From: Armatimonadota bacterium
GTDB taxonomy: Bacteria > Armatimonadota > Chthonomonadetes > Chthonomonadales > Chthonomonadaceae
DNA length: 55,288 nt
Assembly (NCBI GenBank): GCA_028871815.1
Contig: JAGWMJ010000015.1
Span: forward strand, 1 to 55,288
Direction of reading: 5' to 3'
The first letter of the stretch is position 1. Each line of letters begins with the position of its first letter. This document shows positions 6,512 through 13,514 of the stretch, piece by piece. Under the pieces are notes generated by a model, which worked only from the letters and a program-made list of their open reading frames with translations, ran no database searches and was not told the DNA's origin. The position numbers and the translations under genes are program-made.

Positions 6512-9500
6512 TTACCGCACCTCGATCAGCACCGGCGCGACATCGTACACCTGCCGCGGATTGTAGTACGGGTAGACCCGGCTATCCGGCATCTGCGCGC
6601 GCAGCGGAAATCGCGCTCGAACCTGCCACTGGAACACCATCGTTTGGTGCGGCAGCAGTTGCGTCAGATAGAGCGTCACCTGCCGGCCCGCAATGGTGAA
6701 CTTGCTCAACCGGCCCGCCTTCACGGCCGCGTCAAGCTGATCCGGAATCACATCAAAGCCCGGCGGCGTGCCGATGTCAATGAGCGGCATCTGCACCACT
6801 CCGGAGGTATTGTTGTGGACCGTCACCTCCAGCCCGGCGATGCTATTCGTACGGAGCTGCATGCGATCCCACGAAACGTGCAGGCTCAGCGGCGCGCGTC
6901 GCAGCGGCCGAACCGGGACCGCGCCCCATCGCTGGTACCAGCGCGCTACCACCTGTAACGCCGGCGCTCCCGTGCCGGAGTACTCCACGTCTATGCTATT
7001 TGTGCCGGCGTGCACGCGCTTCTTCAGGGTCACCGTCCGCATTACATCGCCGTTCTCCTGAGTTAGCTGCCACGTCGCCGCGGTGGCGCCGTCGGCCGTC
7101 ACGGTTACCACTCCGCTGCTGTTGCCGGCGCCATGTTCACTGTCGTAGAGCAGCGCCCTGAGCGCCCAAACCGTCGCCTGCGTGGTGCCCCAGGCGCCAT
7201 CACCACCGCGCTGTGCCGCCAGCCATGCCAGCGACTTCTGAACCACCGAGACATTCTCGCCCCACTTTTCAAGCGCGATAGTGGCCAAACCGACGGTTTC
7301 CGCGTCTGCGCTGCCGCCTGTGGCGCCGGTAAATGTCATCTGTTCCGTGCCCGTTGGCCACCACAGATCGCTGCCGTCGGATCGCGCCATGCCGATCAGC
7401 CGGTTTGCCGTCGCTCCGGTGGCGGCGCCGTGCGGCTCAAGATCGACCAGCAGGTTCAGGATTAACGCCAGGGTGTAGGCGTCCTTTGCCTCAGAGAGAT
7501 GGCGCCGGACGTAGTCCGCGCCTCGGGCCGTTACCGAGCCGGTATAGCCCGACTCAACGAGCGCCCAATCCACGTACGCGGTTGTGCGCAGCGCTCCGGT
7601 CTGGCGGTTGATGATGCCCTCGGCAATTCCGCCGGTATCTTCCAGCCAGGAGCCGTTCTGCCGCTGCCGGCCGGCCAGCCACTCCTGAGTTCGCGAGATC
7701 AGCGCAGGATCAACGCTCGCGGCGCGCGCCATATCTGAGAACTCCAAAAGGCCATAAGCCGTCAGTACCTGATTTGCCGGCTCCTGCCCGAACCAGGAAA
7801 AGCCGCCGCCTCGGCACTCGAAGGTAAGCAGACGCTGATATCCGATATTCACAAGCGCTTCGGCCTTCATTCGGATCGCTGGATTATCGCGGTGCGTCGC
7901 CTTCAGGTAGTTCAGGACCAGCACGTTCGGGTACGTGGTGGAACTGGTCTGCTCGAAGCAGCCGTAAGGCATTCGCAGAAGACCGTCGAGGCCGTCGAGA
8001 GCCTGGCTGAGCGCACCGGGATAGAGCTTCACCTGAATGGAGCTGGCGCCGTCGATCGCCTGCGTCGGGATCACGATCGTCTGATGCCATGACGCCGTAA
8101 CACGGTGGTTGATGATGCTCTCCATCGGACGGCCATCGGCAGTTACAGCCACCGTACGCCGCACGGCGTCGGAGTGCCTGGGACTTACAGCCGATACGGT
8201 GATGTGATGGCTGCCGGGCGTCAGGGCCGTGATCGTGAAAGAGACCGACGTCACTTCGCCGGCCGCCACCGTCACCTGCCGCGTGTCGGCGCCGGTGAGC
8301 GCAAACCATGCCGCCGGCTGCATTGAGACACGGATCGTCTGGGCGGTGGTGAGATAGTTGTAGATCGCAACTGGAAGGGTGATCTGGTCGTGCTGCGTCA
8401 GTTCCAGCGGCACGTCCACATCCACGAAGAACGGCTGAAACACGCGCACCGGCGTGACCGCGGAACCAAAGTTGCCCTGTAGGTCGATCGCCTCCAAGTT
8501 CAGTTGCCACGTGGTGATGGAGTCGGCCATGGTCAATCGCTGAACAGCGTAGCCACTGTCGTCCGTGATCAATTGCGGCTGCCAAAGCAGGGTCTCCGGA
8601 AACCACGATCTCAGGCGCGGCGCGGGGCCACCGCCGGCCTCCTGCTGCAGAGAGCCTTTGGCCGCGGCCAATCCATTGGAACCGATGGCATCCGCTGGGG
8701 TGTTCGTTGGCACCGCCATTTCCTCGCGGATTTCCCGCCGGTTGACTCCGGCGGGCAGTTCCACCGCGCCGCCGAGACCACCGGGCCCGCCACGGAAACC
8801 GCCGGCGCCGCCGAAGAAGCCGCCGACGGGTTCCGCCTCGCCGTCTAGGTCGTCAGCAGTGCCCCAGCGGCGGTCCGGTCCCGCGCTTTTGAGGATGCAG
8901 TAGTCAGCGCTTTGCCCCGGCCACTCCGGGCGGTACTGCGTTCCCCACGGATCTACCACGTCGGCCAACAGCAGGTAGCCATGGTGAATCAGCACATCCA
9001 GTGCATCGCTCATCCTCAGCGATTCGCCATGCTGCAGGCGGTAGTTCGAAAGCGCCCGGTTGACGCGAGCCTGTGCCTTTTCCAGGACGGCGATGGCAGC
9101 CCTCCTGATCGCGGACCAGCGCGTCAGCCAGGAGTCCTCGTTCAGCGACATGTCGGGTGGCCCGTCCGCAGCTGCCAGAACCAGCGCTGCAGCGCGCTCC
9201 TGCTCGGGCGAGCCGAACCGGATAGGTCCCGGACTGACGAGCATCGGCGGCGATATCCCGTGGATCTCGTATCGCGGCCGCATCAACGAGCTCTCCAGCG
9301 CATAATAGACGCGCGCTAGTCCGGCATGCTCGGCAGACAGAGAGAGCACGCTTTCATCCACCATCGAAAGCCCGAGCGCCGACGGGGCTGGATTGCCCGA
9401 GCCATCCGTGACGCGAAACCTGAGGAGTGCAGTTCCGCCCGGCTTGAATTCAGCTTCCGCGCCGGATATTCGTACCTGCAGCCCGGTGGCCGGCATCACA

Positions 9501-11095
9501 ACTGTAGTGCGAGTATCGCGAACGATGTTCTCGTTTGTCAGGATACGGAACGCGCTGAATTGAACGGTGCCAACCATCGCCGCCGTTGCCGGAATGTTGA
9601 AGTCTGCGCGACCAGACCGCAGCGGACTATCCTCGGTGAGAACGGTATGCCCATTCAGGATCGCGTCCAGATAGATGGTGCCTGTGGACGCGCTCGCCAA
9701 AGCCCGAAAGTGCAGAATCTGACCCGCCTTCACCATCGGGTTGCTGCACTCAAGCAGCAATCCACCATCGTGCGCACTGAGTGGGACCGTAGTCTCCGAC
9801 CGGCGACCGCCGGCGTCCACCGCGAAAACTGCAAGAGTCGTGCTGCCGGAGCCAGGCGTGAGAGTTATCTCTGCGATTCCCAGTCGGTCGGTCGTTCCTC
9901 GACAGATTTCCGTGCTATCGGCCGGACGGACAGAAAGTCGCACGCCAGGCAGCGCCTTTCCATCGGGTGTGGCCACCGAGAGATAGATCTTGTTCGGCAG
10001 TCCGGATTGGAGCGCGCCGTCCTCCGGTACCGCAACGACGGAGATAGCTGACCGCGCGACAACAACATCGATCGCAGCCCGCTGGAGGTGGCCGGCGCTG
10101 TCCACCACGTCGGCGCCGATCTCAAGGTTTCCATTGCCGTTGGAGAATTGCTGGCCGAACAGCGTATCGGGCAGGCGCAGTAGGAATCCGCACGTGCCGT
10201 CGGCGCCGGTGGTCAACTCTTGCGTGCCAAGCGTCTGCGCGCCTACGTCGAATGTCTGATAATCCAGTGAGACCTTGGCGCCGGCGACGGGCTTACCGAA
10301 GAAGTAACGCGCGGATAGCGTGCCCGTAACGGTCTGGCCCGGCAGATACCACGGCATCAACGGTTTGATCTCGATCTTGAATTTCGGCAGCGTGTAACGT
10401 TCTACGCGCACGTTGATCGTGGCCGAGCCTCCCGGGGTGTCAGCCGTCACGCGGTAGGAACCGAGGTTCACCTCGTCGGCAAGCTGAAAATCCGTGCCGG
10501 CGATTCCAAAGCGGGAGAGAGCTGCCGTCTTGCGAAAGACCTTGTTCCCGCGACCGTCCTCCACCAGGAATGCGATGCCGTCGCCGGTCTGCGGCCTTCC
10601 CGTCGCCTGGTCAATCGCCATCGCTCGTAGATGGATCAGCTGTCCGGGCTGGTAGAGCGGCTTGTCGCTGGTCAGGAGCAGGCGCACCTGTGGGCTCAGC
10701 GATATCGGCTCAGTCAAATGGTCGCGGCCCTCCACGGTAGCCGCCTCGACAACCAGGCTGGCGTGGGTTACGGTTGTGCGCGGTACGCGAAACTGCGCAG
10801 CCACGGTTCCGGCGCTATCGGAATGGGCGGAGAATAGTGGGATGCCGCTGGCGCCGGCGGCGCCGACCCGCAACTCGGCCGAGACATCGGCGGCTAATGG
10901 CAAACCGGTCTGATGGTCCGTGACGAGCACCCGAATCGCTGCGGTTGAGCCTGGCAGCCACGTGCGCTGGCCAAGTATTCGTGTCTCGATCCTACCAGCG
11001 TCCATGTTCCGGGTCTGCCCGGAGGCCGCTCCGAACGGCGTGAACGCCGCCGCCGACGATACTGCGAACACCACCAGGCGCTGAAATCGGTTCAT
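6512..11095 (-). CDS. Alpha-2-macroglobulin family protein with a GspG-like insert
   Basis: About 1527 residues starting at ATG 11095, preceded by GGGAGG at ideal spacing; an upstream TTG (11119) is less likely. Residues 1-27 form a signal peptide ending near ASG-Q, and there is no lipobox. Tandem macroglobulin-type beta domains follow (SDKPLYQPGQ near residue 155 is characteristic), then an alpha-2-macroglobulin domain and the thioester motif YGCFEQ (Cys1046), then the alpha-toroid helices and a C-terminal beta domain. Family role: trapping proteases by covalent capture in the periplasm or at the cell surface. Unusually, where the bait region is expected (about 660-750) there is a module like the head of type II secretion major pseudopilins (DPWGTQY at 715, SAGPD then GTADD), followed by a Gly-rich linker (GGFFGGAGG). 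No penicillin-binding protein 1C gene is adjacent. The GDPD-C39 gene lies upstream in the same direction. Confidence 0.9.
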   Translation of the reverse strand: MNRFQRLVVFAVSSAAAFTPFGAASGQTRNMDAGRIETRILGQRTWLPGSTAAIRVLVTDHQTGLPLAADVSAELRVGAAGASGIPLFSAHSDSAGTVAAQFRVPRTTVTHASLVVEAATVEGRDHLTEPISLSPQVRLLLTSDKPLYQPGQLIHLRAMAIDQATGRPQTGDGIAFLVEDGRGNKVFRKTAALSRFGIAGTDFQLADEVNLGSYRVTADTPGGSATINVRVERYTLPKFKIEIKPLMPWYLPGQTVTGTLSARYFFGKPVAGAKVSLDYQTFDVGAQTLGTQELTTGADGTCGFLLRLPDTLFGQQFSNGNGNLEIGADVVDSAGHLQRAAIDVVVARSAISVVAVPEDGALQSGLPNKIYLSVATPDGKALPGVRLSVRPADSTEICRGTTDRLGIAEITLTPGSGSTTLAVFAVDAGGRRSETTVPLSAHDGGLLLECSNPMVKAGQILHFRALASASTGTIYLDAILNGHTVLTEDSPLRSGRADFNIPATAAMVGTVQFSAFRILTNENIVRDTRTTVVMPATGLQVRISGAEAEFKPGGTALLRFRVTDGSGNPAPSALGLSMVDESVLSLSAEHAGLARVYYALESSLMRPRYEIHGISPPMLVSPGPIRFGSPEQERAAALVLAAADGPPDMSLNEDSWLTRWSAIRRAAIAVLEKAQARVNRALSNYRLQHGESLRMSDALDVLIHHGYLLLADVVDPWGTQYRPEWPGQSADYCILKSAGPDRRWGTADDLDGEAEPVGGFFGGAGGFRGGPGGLGGAVELPAGVNRREIREEMAVPTNTPADAIGSNGLAAAKGSLQQEAGGGPAPRLRSWFPETLLWQPQLITDDSGYAVQRLTMADSITTWQLNLEAIDLQGNFGSAVTPVRVFQPFFVDVDVPLELTQHDQITLPVAIYNYLTTAQTIRVSMQPAAWFALTGADTRQVTVAAGEVTSVSFTITALTPGSHHITVSAVSPRHSDAVRRTVAVTADGRPMESIINHRVTASWHQTIVIPTQAIDGASSIQVKLYPGALSQALDGLDGLLRMPYGCFEQTSSTTYPNVLVLNYLKATHRDNPAIRMKAEALVNIGYQRLLTFECRGGGFSWFGQEPANQVLTAYGLLEFSDMARAASVDPALISRTQEWLAGRQRQNGSWLEDTGGIAEGIINRQTGALRTTAYVDWALVESGYTGSVTARGADYVRRHLSEAKDAYTLALILNLLVDLEPHGAATGATANRLIGMARSDGSDLWWPTGTEQMTFTGATGGSADAETVGLATIALEKWGENVSVVQKSLAWLAAQRGGDGAWGTTQATVWALRALLYDSEHGAGNSSGVVTVTADGATAATWQLTQENGDVMRTVTLKKRVHAGTNSIDVEYSGTGAPALQVVARWYQRWGAVPVRPLRRAPLSLHVSWDRMQLRTNSIAGLEVTVHNNTSGVVQMPLIDIGTPPGFDVIPDQLDAAVKAGRLSKFTIAGRQVTLYLTQLLPHQTMVFQWQVRARFPLRAQMPDSRVYPYYNPRQVYDVAPVLIEVR

Positions 11096-11269
11096 AGATG
11101 CCTCCCTCAAGCCGTTCAAGCCGGTAGTTCGACGGCGAGCCCAACGCGTGGGTTACCAGAGAGAGAAAGTAAACAGGCGCGCCGGGCGGCTCGCGGCGTG
11201 CAAAGAGCTGGAAAGGCGGATGCGCGCTACAAGTCGTTCACGCCCGGAAGCAGTGGTACCGCCGGTCGC

Positions 11270-13072
11270 CTACTCCCAATGGCCGTGCGTATTGGGTGGA
11301 ATGTGCCATCCGGTGGGATAGATGAGGTAAACAATGCCGTGCGATCGAGCCCATGCCCGGATAAACGCCTCACGGGGATAGACCCGCCGTGCGGTGGCCG
11401 ACTCGGCGGCGTGGTATGCCGGATCGTTCAGCACGATGTCGCCGGCCGCCGTGAATCCGTCGCATACCAAAAGGTGCCCGGGATCGTTATCGACGGCTTT
11501 ACCGCGAAGCAGGTCGTAAGATACGGAGACCACCACCGGGATACCCACGTACGTCCAGTCCTCGAGCTCACACACTGAATTGAAGCGCGTCACGTAGGCG
11601 CGCATTCCACGCCAGCGGCCGGCCCATGCCGTATTGAACGGCCAATTGCCGGTACCGTTGTAGATCGGATCAAAGATCGCTGCCGCGGCCTGCGGCACCG
11701 GCACGTCCATGTTCGGTCGATTGAGTCGTTTGGCCCAAAACGCCATGTCCATAGCCGCACTGGTCGGGCTGCACCAGCCGCTGGCTCCCTGCCAATCGAG
11801 CTGGCTCTTGCTGGGTACGGCAATCTCCTTACCCCAGGCTTCACGGTTGGCGGGCAACATGTCGCGCGGTGCGCTGGCATCGCAGAGAGAAAGGCCCAGG
11901 TATCGCAACGTTGGCGTCTGGCCGGCAGGAGGCGCATGCAGCGCAATACGCAGCTGCCAGCGGCTTGACCCACTCGTCAGCGAAAGCGTATCTGTAGCCA
12001 CGCTGCCGTCTGCGTCCCGCTGACCGTCCACGCTGCTCCGCGGCATGTTTGGATCGGAAGACCACCGACCCATGCTGTAGTAGCCTGTCCATCGGTCGCC
12101 AAGCCATGCGCGGGCGTTGACTTCCAGCCATGTGCCGGGTGGCGTGTCGGCATTCCAGGATGCTACGGCCAAATTGGCAACACAGTCGCCATGGATCACG
12201 GGCGATGTCAGCCACATAACGCCCGGTTCACGCAGGTGTACAAAGGATCGAAATGTTGAAAAACCCACGAACTGGCTGCCGAGGCAAGCGCGTGGCGATG
12301 CGCTGGTGACTACGCTGCGTTTCAGCATCCGCCGGAGCGCTGCCGGATGGTCGGTCTGAATTCCGTCGGCGCCAAGAGCCAGCGCCCGTCGCCATCCGTC
12401 CGGAGTATCATCCGGGCCGAGGCAATCCATATACACAGCCGCACCCAGTGCGTGAGACTCGTCGACGAGTTCCACGGTCCAGTCACCAACGGAACCGTCG
12501 AACAGCCGTGCGCCTGTCTCACTCTGAAGCGCGCGCAAACCCGGTCCCGTCCGTTCATCTGGCGGGACGCTTGGCATCACTGGAATCTCAGGATCCAGTT
12601 CGCGCCACCCTGCGAGGGTCTGCCGGCCGCCCCATACCACCGTCCGCCGCTCCATGCCAAACCGTTTCAATATCGCCAGAATCGCCGTGGCCGAGCCGGC
12701 TTTGTGATCGATATAGAGATTGATGCGTCCGGCAGCTTTCGCAACGCACTGCTCCAGCGTTGGAACTCGCGCGGCCGCGAACCTTGCGCAAAACTTCGAG
12801 CCGGCATCCATCCGGGTGATCTCATCCAGGGTCAGGTCGGCGACGGCGCCGCTTCCCGAGGTCGTTCGATCCACGGTGCGGTCGTGCATCGCGATCAGAT
12901 GTCCGTCACGCGTTTCGCGGACATCGATCTCAACGTAATCGGCCTTCGCGCGGATTGCGGAAGCGATTCCCGGCAGCGTGTTCTCCGGCGCCAGGGAGCT
13001 GGCGCCACGATGAGCTATTACGGCAATTGTGTGCTGCAACGGCGGCACCACTGTTGGAGCGATAATGCACAT
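11270..13072 (-). CDS. Glycerophosphodiester phosphodiesterase fused to a C39-like cysteine peptidase
   Basis: 600 residues. Residues ~15-245 are a GDPD TIM barrel: HRG (His21), PENT, EIDV and MHD motifs are present, predicting Ca/Mg-dependent cleavage of glycerophosphodiesters. After a ~150-residue beta-rich segment like that preceding C39 domains (WNADTPPGTW, YSMGRWSSD) comes a peptidase_C39_2-type domain with Cys434 in GWCSPTS and His533 in GHLLVCDG, plus LNDPA for the third catalytic position. No signal peptide is apparent. The start is set at ATG 13072 because a TATAAT box ends six bases upstream and because GDPD homology begins just after it; the longer upstream open frame contains the promoter. 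The 174-bp gap to the macroglobulin gene suggests possible co-transcription. Confidence 0.85.
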   Translation of the reverse strand: MCIIAPTVVPPLQHTIAVIAHRGASSLAPENTLPGIASAIRAKADYVEIDVRETRDGHLIAMHDRTVDRTTSGSGAVADLTLDEITRMDAGSKFCARFAAARVPTLEQCVAKAAGRINLYIDHKAGSATAILAILKRFGMERRTVVWGGRQTLAGWRELDPEIPVMPSVPPDERTGPGLRALQSETGARLFDGSVGDWTVELVDESHALGAAVYMDCLGPDDTPDGWRRALALGADGIQTDHPAALRRMLKRSVVTSASPRACLGSQFVGFSTFRSFVHLREPGVMWLTSPVIHGDCVANLAVASWNADTPPGTWLEVNARAWLGDRWTGYYSMGRWSSDPNMPRSSVDGQRDADGSVATDTLSLTSGSSRWQLRIALHAPPAGQTPTLRYLGLSLCDASAPRDMLPANREAWGKEIAVPSKSQLDWQGASGWCSPTSAAMDMAFWAKRLNRPNMDVPVPQAAAAIFDPIYNGTGNWPFNTAWAGRWRGMRAYVTRFNSVCELEDWTYVGIPVVVSVSYDLLRGKAVDNDPGHLLVCDGFTAAGDIVLNDPAYHAAESATARRVYPREAFIRAWARSHGIVYLIYPTGWHIPPNTHGHWE

Positions 13073-13078
13073 GAAACC

Positions 13079-13084
13079 ATTATA
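13079..13084 (-). promoter_or_regulatory. -10 box for the GDPD-C39 gene, leaderless geometry
   Basis: On the minus strand TATAAT is followed by six bases and then ATG (13072), so transcription should begin at the A of the start codon. The sequence ATTATAAT also gives a perfect TATAAT on the plus strand (13081-13086), so the site could fire in both directions. No good -35 box is seen for either. Confidence 0.6.
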
Positions 13085-13195
13085 ATGCCGCAAAAGTGGC
13101 GGCATTTCCGTGTCCGGTTCGTATTCTGAACCGGCGCCCAAGCCGCGTTCAATCTGCCGTAGCCGTCGTTGCCGCAGATTATTGGAAATGGACGG

Positions 13196-13201
13196 TATAA
13201 T
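13196..13201 (+). promoter_or_regulatory. -10 box upstream of the pyrG transcription unit
   Basis: A perfect TATAAT 77 bases before the ATG of the small gene at 13278. No strong -35 is seen; TTGCCG at 13169 is 21 bases away. A start near 13208 would put the hairpin at 13211-13237 at the very 5' end of the mRNA. Confidence 0.5.
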
Positions 13202-13210
13202 CCTTGATGG

Positions 13211-13241
13211 GCGCAACGTGGATCCTCCGCGTTGCGCTTTT
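13211..13241 (+). terminator. 11-bp hairpin followed by TTTT in the 5' leader (terminator or attenuator)
   Basis: GCGCAACGTGG (13211-13221) pairs with CCGCGTTGCGC (13227-13237) with one G-U pair, around the 5-nt loop ATCCT, and TTTT follows (13238-13241). This is intrinsic-terminator architecture, but it sits just after the TATAAT at 13196 and 37 bases before the next gene. It could stop readthrough from upstream, attenuate the pyrG unit, or protect the 5' end. Confidence 0.5.
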
Positions 13242-13277
13242 CGCGTTTCCTGCCGTATCCGCGCGCGGAGGCTCACG

Positions 13278-13514
13278 ATGCCGATCTTCGACCAGCTTAA
13301 AAAGGGTGAGGCCAGAGTGCGGATTCTTCCACCAGATACCATGGGCGGCTTCGCCGTGCTGATGCAGCTCACCGGCGGTAAGCTGCAGGTACTACCGCAG
13401 GACCTCTATGTGGTGGAGGCCAAAATCCTGCCGATGCTGCGCGAGCGGAAGATAGCGTTTGAAGAGGTGACGTTTGGTGCGCCGCAGGCGCCGGATGGCG
13501 AGACGCAGAAATGA
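13278..13514 (+). CDS. Small hypothetical protein upstream of pyrG
   Basis: 78 residues, not recognised. GGAGG at 13267-13271 is well placed before the ATG. The protein has no signal peptide or membrane segment; it reads as a compact alpha/beta sequence with an LKKGEARVRILPP start, a hydrophobic GGFAVLMQLTGG strand pair and a charged LRERKIAFEEV helix. The stop overlaps the pyrG ATG (ATGA), so translation is coupled to CTP synthase. Its position behind a leader hairpin and ahead of pyrG could suit a regulator or a small nucleotide-metabolism protein, but that is inference. Confidence 0.65.
   Translation: MPIFDQLKKGEARVRILPPDTMGGFAVLMQLTGGKLQVLPQDLYVVEAKILPMLRERKIAFEEVTFGAPQAPDGETQK

Follow-up and report, generated by a model that had tools for sequence, protein, structure and literature searches.

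Why should a gene for a protease inhibitor of the alpha-2-macroglobulin (A2M) family contain what looks like a piece of a type II secretion pseudopilin? The question arose from a stretch of 55,288 nucleotides of an Armatimonadota bacterium (GenBank assembly GCA_028871815.1, contig JAGWMJ010000015.1, positions 1 to 55,288; this whole stretch is called the window here), in which a first-pass annotation, made from the sequence alone, had described a GspG-like pseudopilin head near the expected bait region of an A2M encoded on the minus strand. We found that this segment (8840-9139, minus strand) is a GspG/PulG-type pseudopilin head, or T2SSG-like domain, as indicated by PF08334, a profile of orthologous inserts, AlphaFold2, Foldseek, VIA-align and HHalign.

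Along the frame, the elements ALSNYRLQHGESL, LDVLIHHGYLL, DPWGTQY (8933-8953), the calcium-loop sequence SAGPDRRWGTADD (8849-8887) and a Gly-rich stretch follow one another, so that every motif named in the first-pass annotation, the order of the motifs and the Gly-rich linker after the head were all present at the places it had given. Its extent for the head, 8840-9115, was correct in position and slightly too short, since the long helix of the AlphaFold2 model begins at about residue 661 of the A2M, which takes the domain to about 9139. Pfam places the T2SSG match at A2M residues 685-756. PF08334 scored 21.4 bits at the insert when the genome was searched in all six frames and 23.1 bits on the segment alone, against a curated cut-off of 21 bits, below which a scan of the whole 1535-residue protein fell (17.4 bits); the same family independently matched the orthologous A2Ms of more than 20 related genomes, with up to 34.8 bits. 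When 30 orthologous inserts from related genomes were aligned and used as a profile against all PDB sequences, the top eight matches were GspG, PulG, EpsG and XcpT (E 2e-10 to 2e-6), and the ninth reached only E 0.016. HHalign joined the insert to the GspG of the phylum over 87 columns with a probability of 99.1% and an E-value of 1.6e-18, and the GspG of the same genome, which reads LDPWGTPY at the DPWG motif of major pseudopilins, was 51% identical to the insert over a stretch of 37 residues that runs from DPWG to the calcium loop. The DPWGTQY motif is conserved among the inserts; in the 30-insert alignment A6, L72, D85, G109, D111 and D118 (segment numbering) were invariant and S107, T116 and D119 nearly so. 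As the first-pass annotation had stated, the pilin signal and the transmembrane helix are missing: neither the prepilin signal (FTLIE) nor the hydrophobic N-terminal helix was found in the insert, and TIGR01710 matched it by its C-terminal part only, at 18.4 bits and so below its cut-off of 88.85.

The predicted structure agreed with the sequence matches. AlphaFold2 run on the insert alignment gave a core with pLDDT above 90, laid out as a long amphipathic helix, a second helix and beta strands, with no membrane helix. A Foldseek search with this model returned GspG structures in all of its best seven rows, with probabilities up to 1.00 and a best E-value of 3.6e-3, and in VIA-align the top ranks went to six GspG chains, with Z from 9.5 to 7.2, type IV pilins reaching at most 5.8. 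Since the Foldseek E-values are modest, the claim of homology rests on the agreement between methods. Both checks that the first-pass annotation had proposed thus came out in its favour: the best matches of the predicted fold were GspG, with no unrelated fold, and the motif order recurred in the macroglobulins of related genomes. Chance similarity was ruled out by the PF08334 matches in orthologues, the PDB profile search, VIA-align and HHalign. Together, sequence profiles, predicted fold, recurrence in homologues and the conservation of the calcium site described below confirm, at the level of sequence and model, that the insert in the bait region is homologous to the GspG head.

Calcium in the GspG structure 3G20 is bound through the main chain at P114 and V119 and through the side chains at D117, T122 and D125 (PMC3396595), although elsewhere in that paper T122, at position 8, is counted among the main-chain contacts. 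The loop of the insert aligned with these contacts, and D117, T122 and D125 correspond to D749, T754 and D757 of the A2M. In a set of 88 distinct inserts with less than 85% pairwise identity, D749 was kept in 97%, T754 in 86%, D757 in 98% and the neighbouring D756 in 99%, while the Asp of DPWG and the Gly of the loop were identical in all 88 and the Trp of DPWG in 90%; no other part of the insert is as well conserved as the calcium-site residues. Because the residues that contact calcium in GspG are kept, the head likely binds calcium as well. The strict PERCAL consensus G-x-D-G-x-x-[GN]-[TN]-x-D-D failed on the window's loop, in whose GPDRRWGTADD the fourth residue is Arg where 70% of the 88 inserts have Gly; the relaxed pattern G-x-D-x(6)-D-D was satisfied.

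The protein that carries the head is read from a single minus-strand frame of 1535 codons (6512-11119), for which the ATG at 11095 (MNRFQRL...) is the likely start codon over an alternative TTG at 11119, so that the gene occupies 6512-11095; a Sec-type signal, judged by eye, follows this ATG at about 11018-11092. Pfam found MG2, MG3, A2M_BRD, A2M, TED_complement (133 bits) and A2M_recep in the usual order, and among the matches listed the closest PDB relatives were CD109 and human A2M, with E-values down to 7e-57. Given the thioester motif GCFEQ (7949-7963), the CXEQ of the TED domain, and this domain set, the host protein is by its sequence a type I, thioester-containing A2M with predicted trapping activity.

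To place the head within this protein, we built a profile of the MG6-insert-MG6 region from the 30 orthologues (alignment A2). Its start aligned weakly with residues 553-612 of human C5, before C5a, its middle with GspG, and its end with residues 725-799 of human A2M, directly after the bait region, and with C5 743-812; in the C5 chain 4a5w, which is 78 residues shorter, the end matched 665-734 instead. C5a lies between the two C5 segments. As the flanks match both sides of the bait and anaphylatoxin site, the alignments place the insert in the bait loop, between the MG6 halves and upstream of linker and plug; the head lies at the point that is taken by the bait region in human A2M and by the anaphylatoxin domain in C3, C4 and C5. 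A bait-region domain inserted between MG6 strands 4 and 5 has been described (PMC13069473). The first MG6 half (GLQVRISGAE...SMVDESVLSL) and the LNK-like segment HAGLARVYYALESSLMRPRYEIHG, which correspond to C5 553-612, lie at 9257-9484, and in this part the A2 columns E44, L49, Y60, L63, E64 and P70 were invariant in the 30 orthologues. The flexible linker, rich in Gly, Ala, Met and Arg, lies at 8618-8848 and is, by its composition and its predicted disorder (pLDDT about 30-37), the probable cleavage (bait) segment; over 107 members it had a median length of 73 residues and was rich in M, G, A, R and P, with almost no Cys. The second MG6 half starts with the putative channel plug RSWFP (8597-8611), whose R837, F840 and P841 were invariant in the 30 orthologues and whose R837 and F840 align with the human A2M residues R732 and F735, which belong to the alpha'NT plug. 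Mutagenesis of the human protein indicated that F735 matters for formation of the native state and that R732 does not block triggering (PMC9352918).

How widely this architecture occurs was followed in a scan of 84,980 species, in which 446 relatives came up; the analysis went on with the best 80 of them. The clade of insert-bearing A2Ms spans about a dozen phyla; by record title these include, among the best 80, Armatimonadota, Planctomycetota, Hydrogenedentota, Acidobacteriota, Myxococcota and Poribacteria, and further Cloacimonadota, Vulcanimicrobiota, Caldifarciminota, Chloroflexota, Sumerlaeota and Pseudomonadota, where single assignments may be wrong because many records are metagenome-assembled genomes. 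Every scanned A2M frame of the clade that covers the loop matched the insert profile, the weakest with 15 bits, in a sample biased towards the insert, since the ranking had used a query that included it, so that universality of the head outside Armatimonadota does not follow. In Armatimonadota, with the full protein as query in 101 genomes, the head was found in 35 of 37 clade members with a readable loop, the two exceptions having membrane-like segments in the loop and a retained thioester, while the insert profile matched none of 20 other A2M frames from the phylum. GCFEQ is common to the insert clade, whereas GCTEQ, GCVEQ, GCAEQ or GCIEQ stands in its place in the remaining A2Ms of Armatimonadota. 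A tree built without the insert, by a quick search and with a long separating branch, divided head-bearing from head-free A2Ms by a single change with a support of 100. The head was probably captured into the bait loop once, long ago, and kept since then.

Several members depart from the common form. In two thioester-bearing clade members, L178 (G088:C490) and L182 (G092:C159), several hydrophobic membrane-like segments replace the head in the bait loop; the last segment of L182, AILAIIAAILFPVFAKAREKARQ, resembles a prepilin N-terminal helix and gave a weak match to TIGR01710 (E 0.0076). The bait loop of L180 (G046:C200) has a degenerate calcium loop, LGADGREVSGDEYY, followed by what appears by eye to be a dockerin-like double repeat, DADRSRKVDVKDAVHILRAAV...DANADTEVNVTDAIEAIRISLGL. 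A 1423-residue A2M relative (L152, 1749-6017, minus strand) has no thioester motif and a well-conserved GspG head, scoring 57 bits with the insert profile. Two macroglobulin-like proteins of about 1450 residues, L186 (G045:C167) and L187 (G031:C171), lack P-x-G-C-x-E-Q and have hydrophobic segments at the bait position; these may be companions of the thioester form.

What might a pseudopilin head do at this site? In A2Ms, a cut in the bait loop allows the plug to retract from a channel, which exposes the thioester. The reading that we favour, to which we assign a probability of roughly 60%, is that the captured GspG head acts in the bait loop as a calcium-clamped spacer and stopper of an exported protease trap. 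The exported protein would trap proteases like other A2Ms, with the cut falling in the linker. The head, probably with calcium bound, would serve as a folded spacer and stopper that packs about 100 of the some 215 loop residues and keeps the long bait loop compact until the linker is cut, which may let the protein reach or hold its native state despite the unusual length of the loop; after cleavage it would remain tethered on the LNK side. It would in this way stand in structurally for the unrelated anaphylatoxin domain of C3, C4 and C5. The reason for expecting a folded spacer comes from human A2M, where lengthening the bait by 5-20 residues gave mostly collapsed protein, effective length being what counts, and where the collapse was probably a failure to reach the native state (PMC9352918); a loop of about 215 residues would on this ground need packing. 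The idea of a structured or calcium-dependent bait, raised in the first-pass annotation, fits the fold and the calcium-site data.

Several points weigh against the spacer and stopper. The linker alone, with its median of 73 residues, already exceeds the human bait of 39; hence even with the head folded the loop is not a short one. Two clade members with a thioester have membrane-like segments in place of the head and one has a degenerate calcium loop, which makes the head dispensable. AlphaFold2 modelling of the domain in context had low confidence (pTM 0.37), also for how the head packs against the A2M body. Human A2M was not triggered when its loop was made longer once the protein had folded (PMC9352918); the contribution of a spacer would thus lie in attaining the native state and not in holding it. 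Finally, trapping, calcium binding and cleavage are predictions for every member.

A stronger claim would be that bacteria independently evolved a complement-like layout, in which a folded, calcium-dependent domain in the MG6 bait loop controls activation, giving calcium-gated trapping, and possibly acts alone after cleavage; we advance this tentatively, as a doubtful reading.

Other roles for the head were weighed. Bait regions decide which proteases trigger an A2M, and the head adjoins the linker; it might on these grounds be a decoy or affinity handle for certain proteases, such as any that target the pilins of secretion systems, and set the specificity of the inhibitor. However, the most conserved residues form the core of the calcium site with no obvious exposed patch, and the domain is present in genomes without GspG, so we regard such a handle as rather improbable.

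The first-pass annotation had also suggested docking with a pseudopilus, by which the head would mimic a pseudopilus subunit and the A2M would bind, guard or pass through the type II secretion system. The domain does derive from GspG, the GspG of the same genome is very similar to it between DPWG and the calcium loop, and among the 101 Armatimonadota genomes GspG was commoner where this A2M occurs (36/39 with it, 38/62 without, Fisher p 0.0005; counts tallied by hand from the match lists). Within the two best-sampled families, however, this association is gone (18/18 with the A2M, 10/11 without, p 0.38), and shared ancestry therefore explains it; three Armatimonadota genomes carry the A2M without GspG. 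Outside the phylum, the A2M insert was the only T2SSG match in 10 of 40 genomes (G103, G104, G109, G110, G112, G114, G116, G119, G126 and G136), three of them listed as complete chromosomes (CP070802, CP070686 and CP070795), and a few more of the 40 were ambiguous, with weak, short T2SSG matches only. The N-terminal helix that assembles the pseudopilus is missing as well. As a general role, pseudopilus docking is thus unlikely and this part of the first-pass annotation was not borne out.

We give equally little credence to an anaphylatoxin-like role, in which cuts on both sides would free the head as a soluble signal or effector fragment. The site is that of C3a, C4a and C5a, and a compact domain with a calcium site is followed by a flexible segment, as such a role would have it; yet a single cut in the linker keeps the head tethered, the 30-insert alignment shows nothing like a conserved site of processing in the stretch from LNK to the head, and neither a receptor nor a conserved neighbouring gene was found at 80 loci and the window. 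Clustering of the flanking frames at these loci gave no widespread neighbour beyond the A2M and its out-of-frame readings, and the largest other recurrence was a prepilin-like gene at 5 of 80 loci. Lastly, that only a portable calcium loop of the PERCAL type arose here independently of GspG can be set aside as a convergent origin: PERCAL loops are indeed inserted in unrelated bacterial peroxidases (PMC3396595), but here the whole head matches GspG, with similarity spanning helix, DPWG and loop over some 87 columns (HHalign 99.1%), significant PDB profile matches and top structural matches that are all GspG.

Some observations on neighbouring genes and on other uses of the head were made along the way. 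Genes with prepilin-like N-termini (FTLIELLVVI...) apparently lie within a few kilobases of the A2M at L064, L066, L099, L123 and L134, which may reflect their mere abundance in those genomes. In the window, the next gene on the same strand (11270-13372, minus) encodes a fusion of a glycerophosphodiester phosphodiesterase with a C39-like peptidase. Non-pilus reuse of the head was also seen in an 893-residue DUF2961 protein (L149, 2555-5233, minus strand), where a T2SSG head (27.9 bits) lies C-terminal to DUF2961. At L143, L144, L145, L146, L147, L148, L150 and L151, frames of 449-542 residues, counted from stop to stop, combine what looks like a hydrophobic segment at the N-terminus with a GspG-like head at the C-terminus; Pfam, run on L143 and L144 only, gave T2SSG and nothing else in these two.

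A literature search found no paper joining a macroglobulin with a pseudopilin, and the top 10 papers of a wider search were all ordinary A2M papers, none mentioning T2SSG or PF08334; since in many members the domain would be picked up by Pfam automatically, the architecture may already stand, uncommented, in databases. What emerges is a widespread clade, undescribed in the literature searched, of bacterial A2Ms whose bait loop holds a folded domain that can be recognised as such. In this clade a pseudopilin head is reused as a soluble calcium-site module and forms a second, independent folded domain at the anaphylatoxin site. Its natural variants, with the head present, with a membrane-like replacement, or with the head kept and the thioester motif lost, make it testable what bait length and folding contribute to A2M activation.

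Set beside known systems, the insert shares its fold, the order of its elements, DPWG and the calcium-loop residues with the head of GspG, PulG, EpsG and XcpT (PF08334), and differs in having no prepilin signal or membrane helix, in a shorter loop from helix to DPWG, and in being embedded in an A2M; as a pseudopilin is defined by that signal and that helix, the protein does not count as one. With human A2M, A2ML1 and CD109 it has in common the domain order, the thioester, the position of the bait loop and the R-x-(aromatic)-F-P plug, whereas A2M and A2ML1 have a short, flexible bait (of 39 residues in the case of A2M) and the loop of the insert clade contains a folded domain. The 60 PDB relatives listed were CD109, A2M, A2ML1, TEP1 and complement-type proteins; no chain of ECAM, SaA2M or MagD and no A2M of E. 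coli or Salmonella was among them, which says little on distance. These, the bacterial type I A2Ms ECAM and SaA2M, with CXEQ thioester and bait region, and the type II MagD, are the bacterial A2Ms with which the present protein is to be compared, and the available parts of the reports on them describe no folded bait insert (PMC4498604, PMC5764988). Complement C3, C4 and C5 likewise have a folded domain at the identical point of MG6, but the head is unrelated to the anaphylatoxin domain, so that the window's A2M has a GspG-like domain at the same site and not an anaphylatoxin, and furin processing, the extra C-terminal domain and a convertase are not known for the insert clade. The PERCAL inserts of bacterial animal-type peroxidases show the same calcium-loop consensus, there too inserted into a different family of proteins (PMC3396595); they comprise, however, only about 11 residues, whereas the A2M has taken up a whole pseudopilin head.
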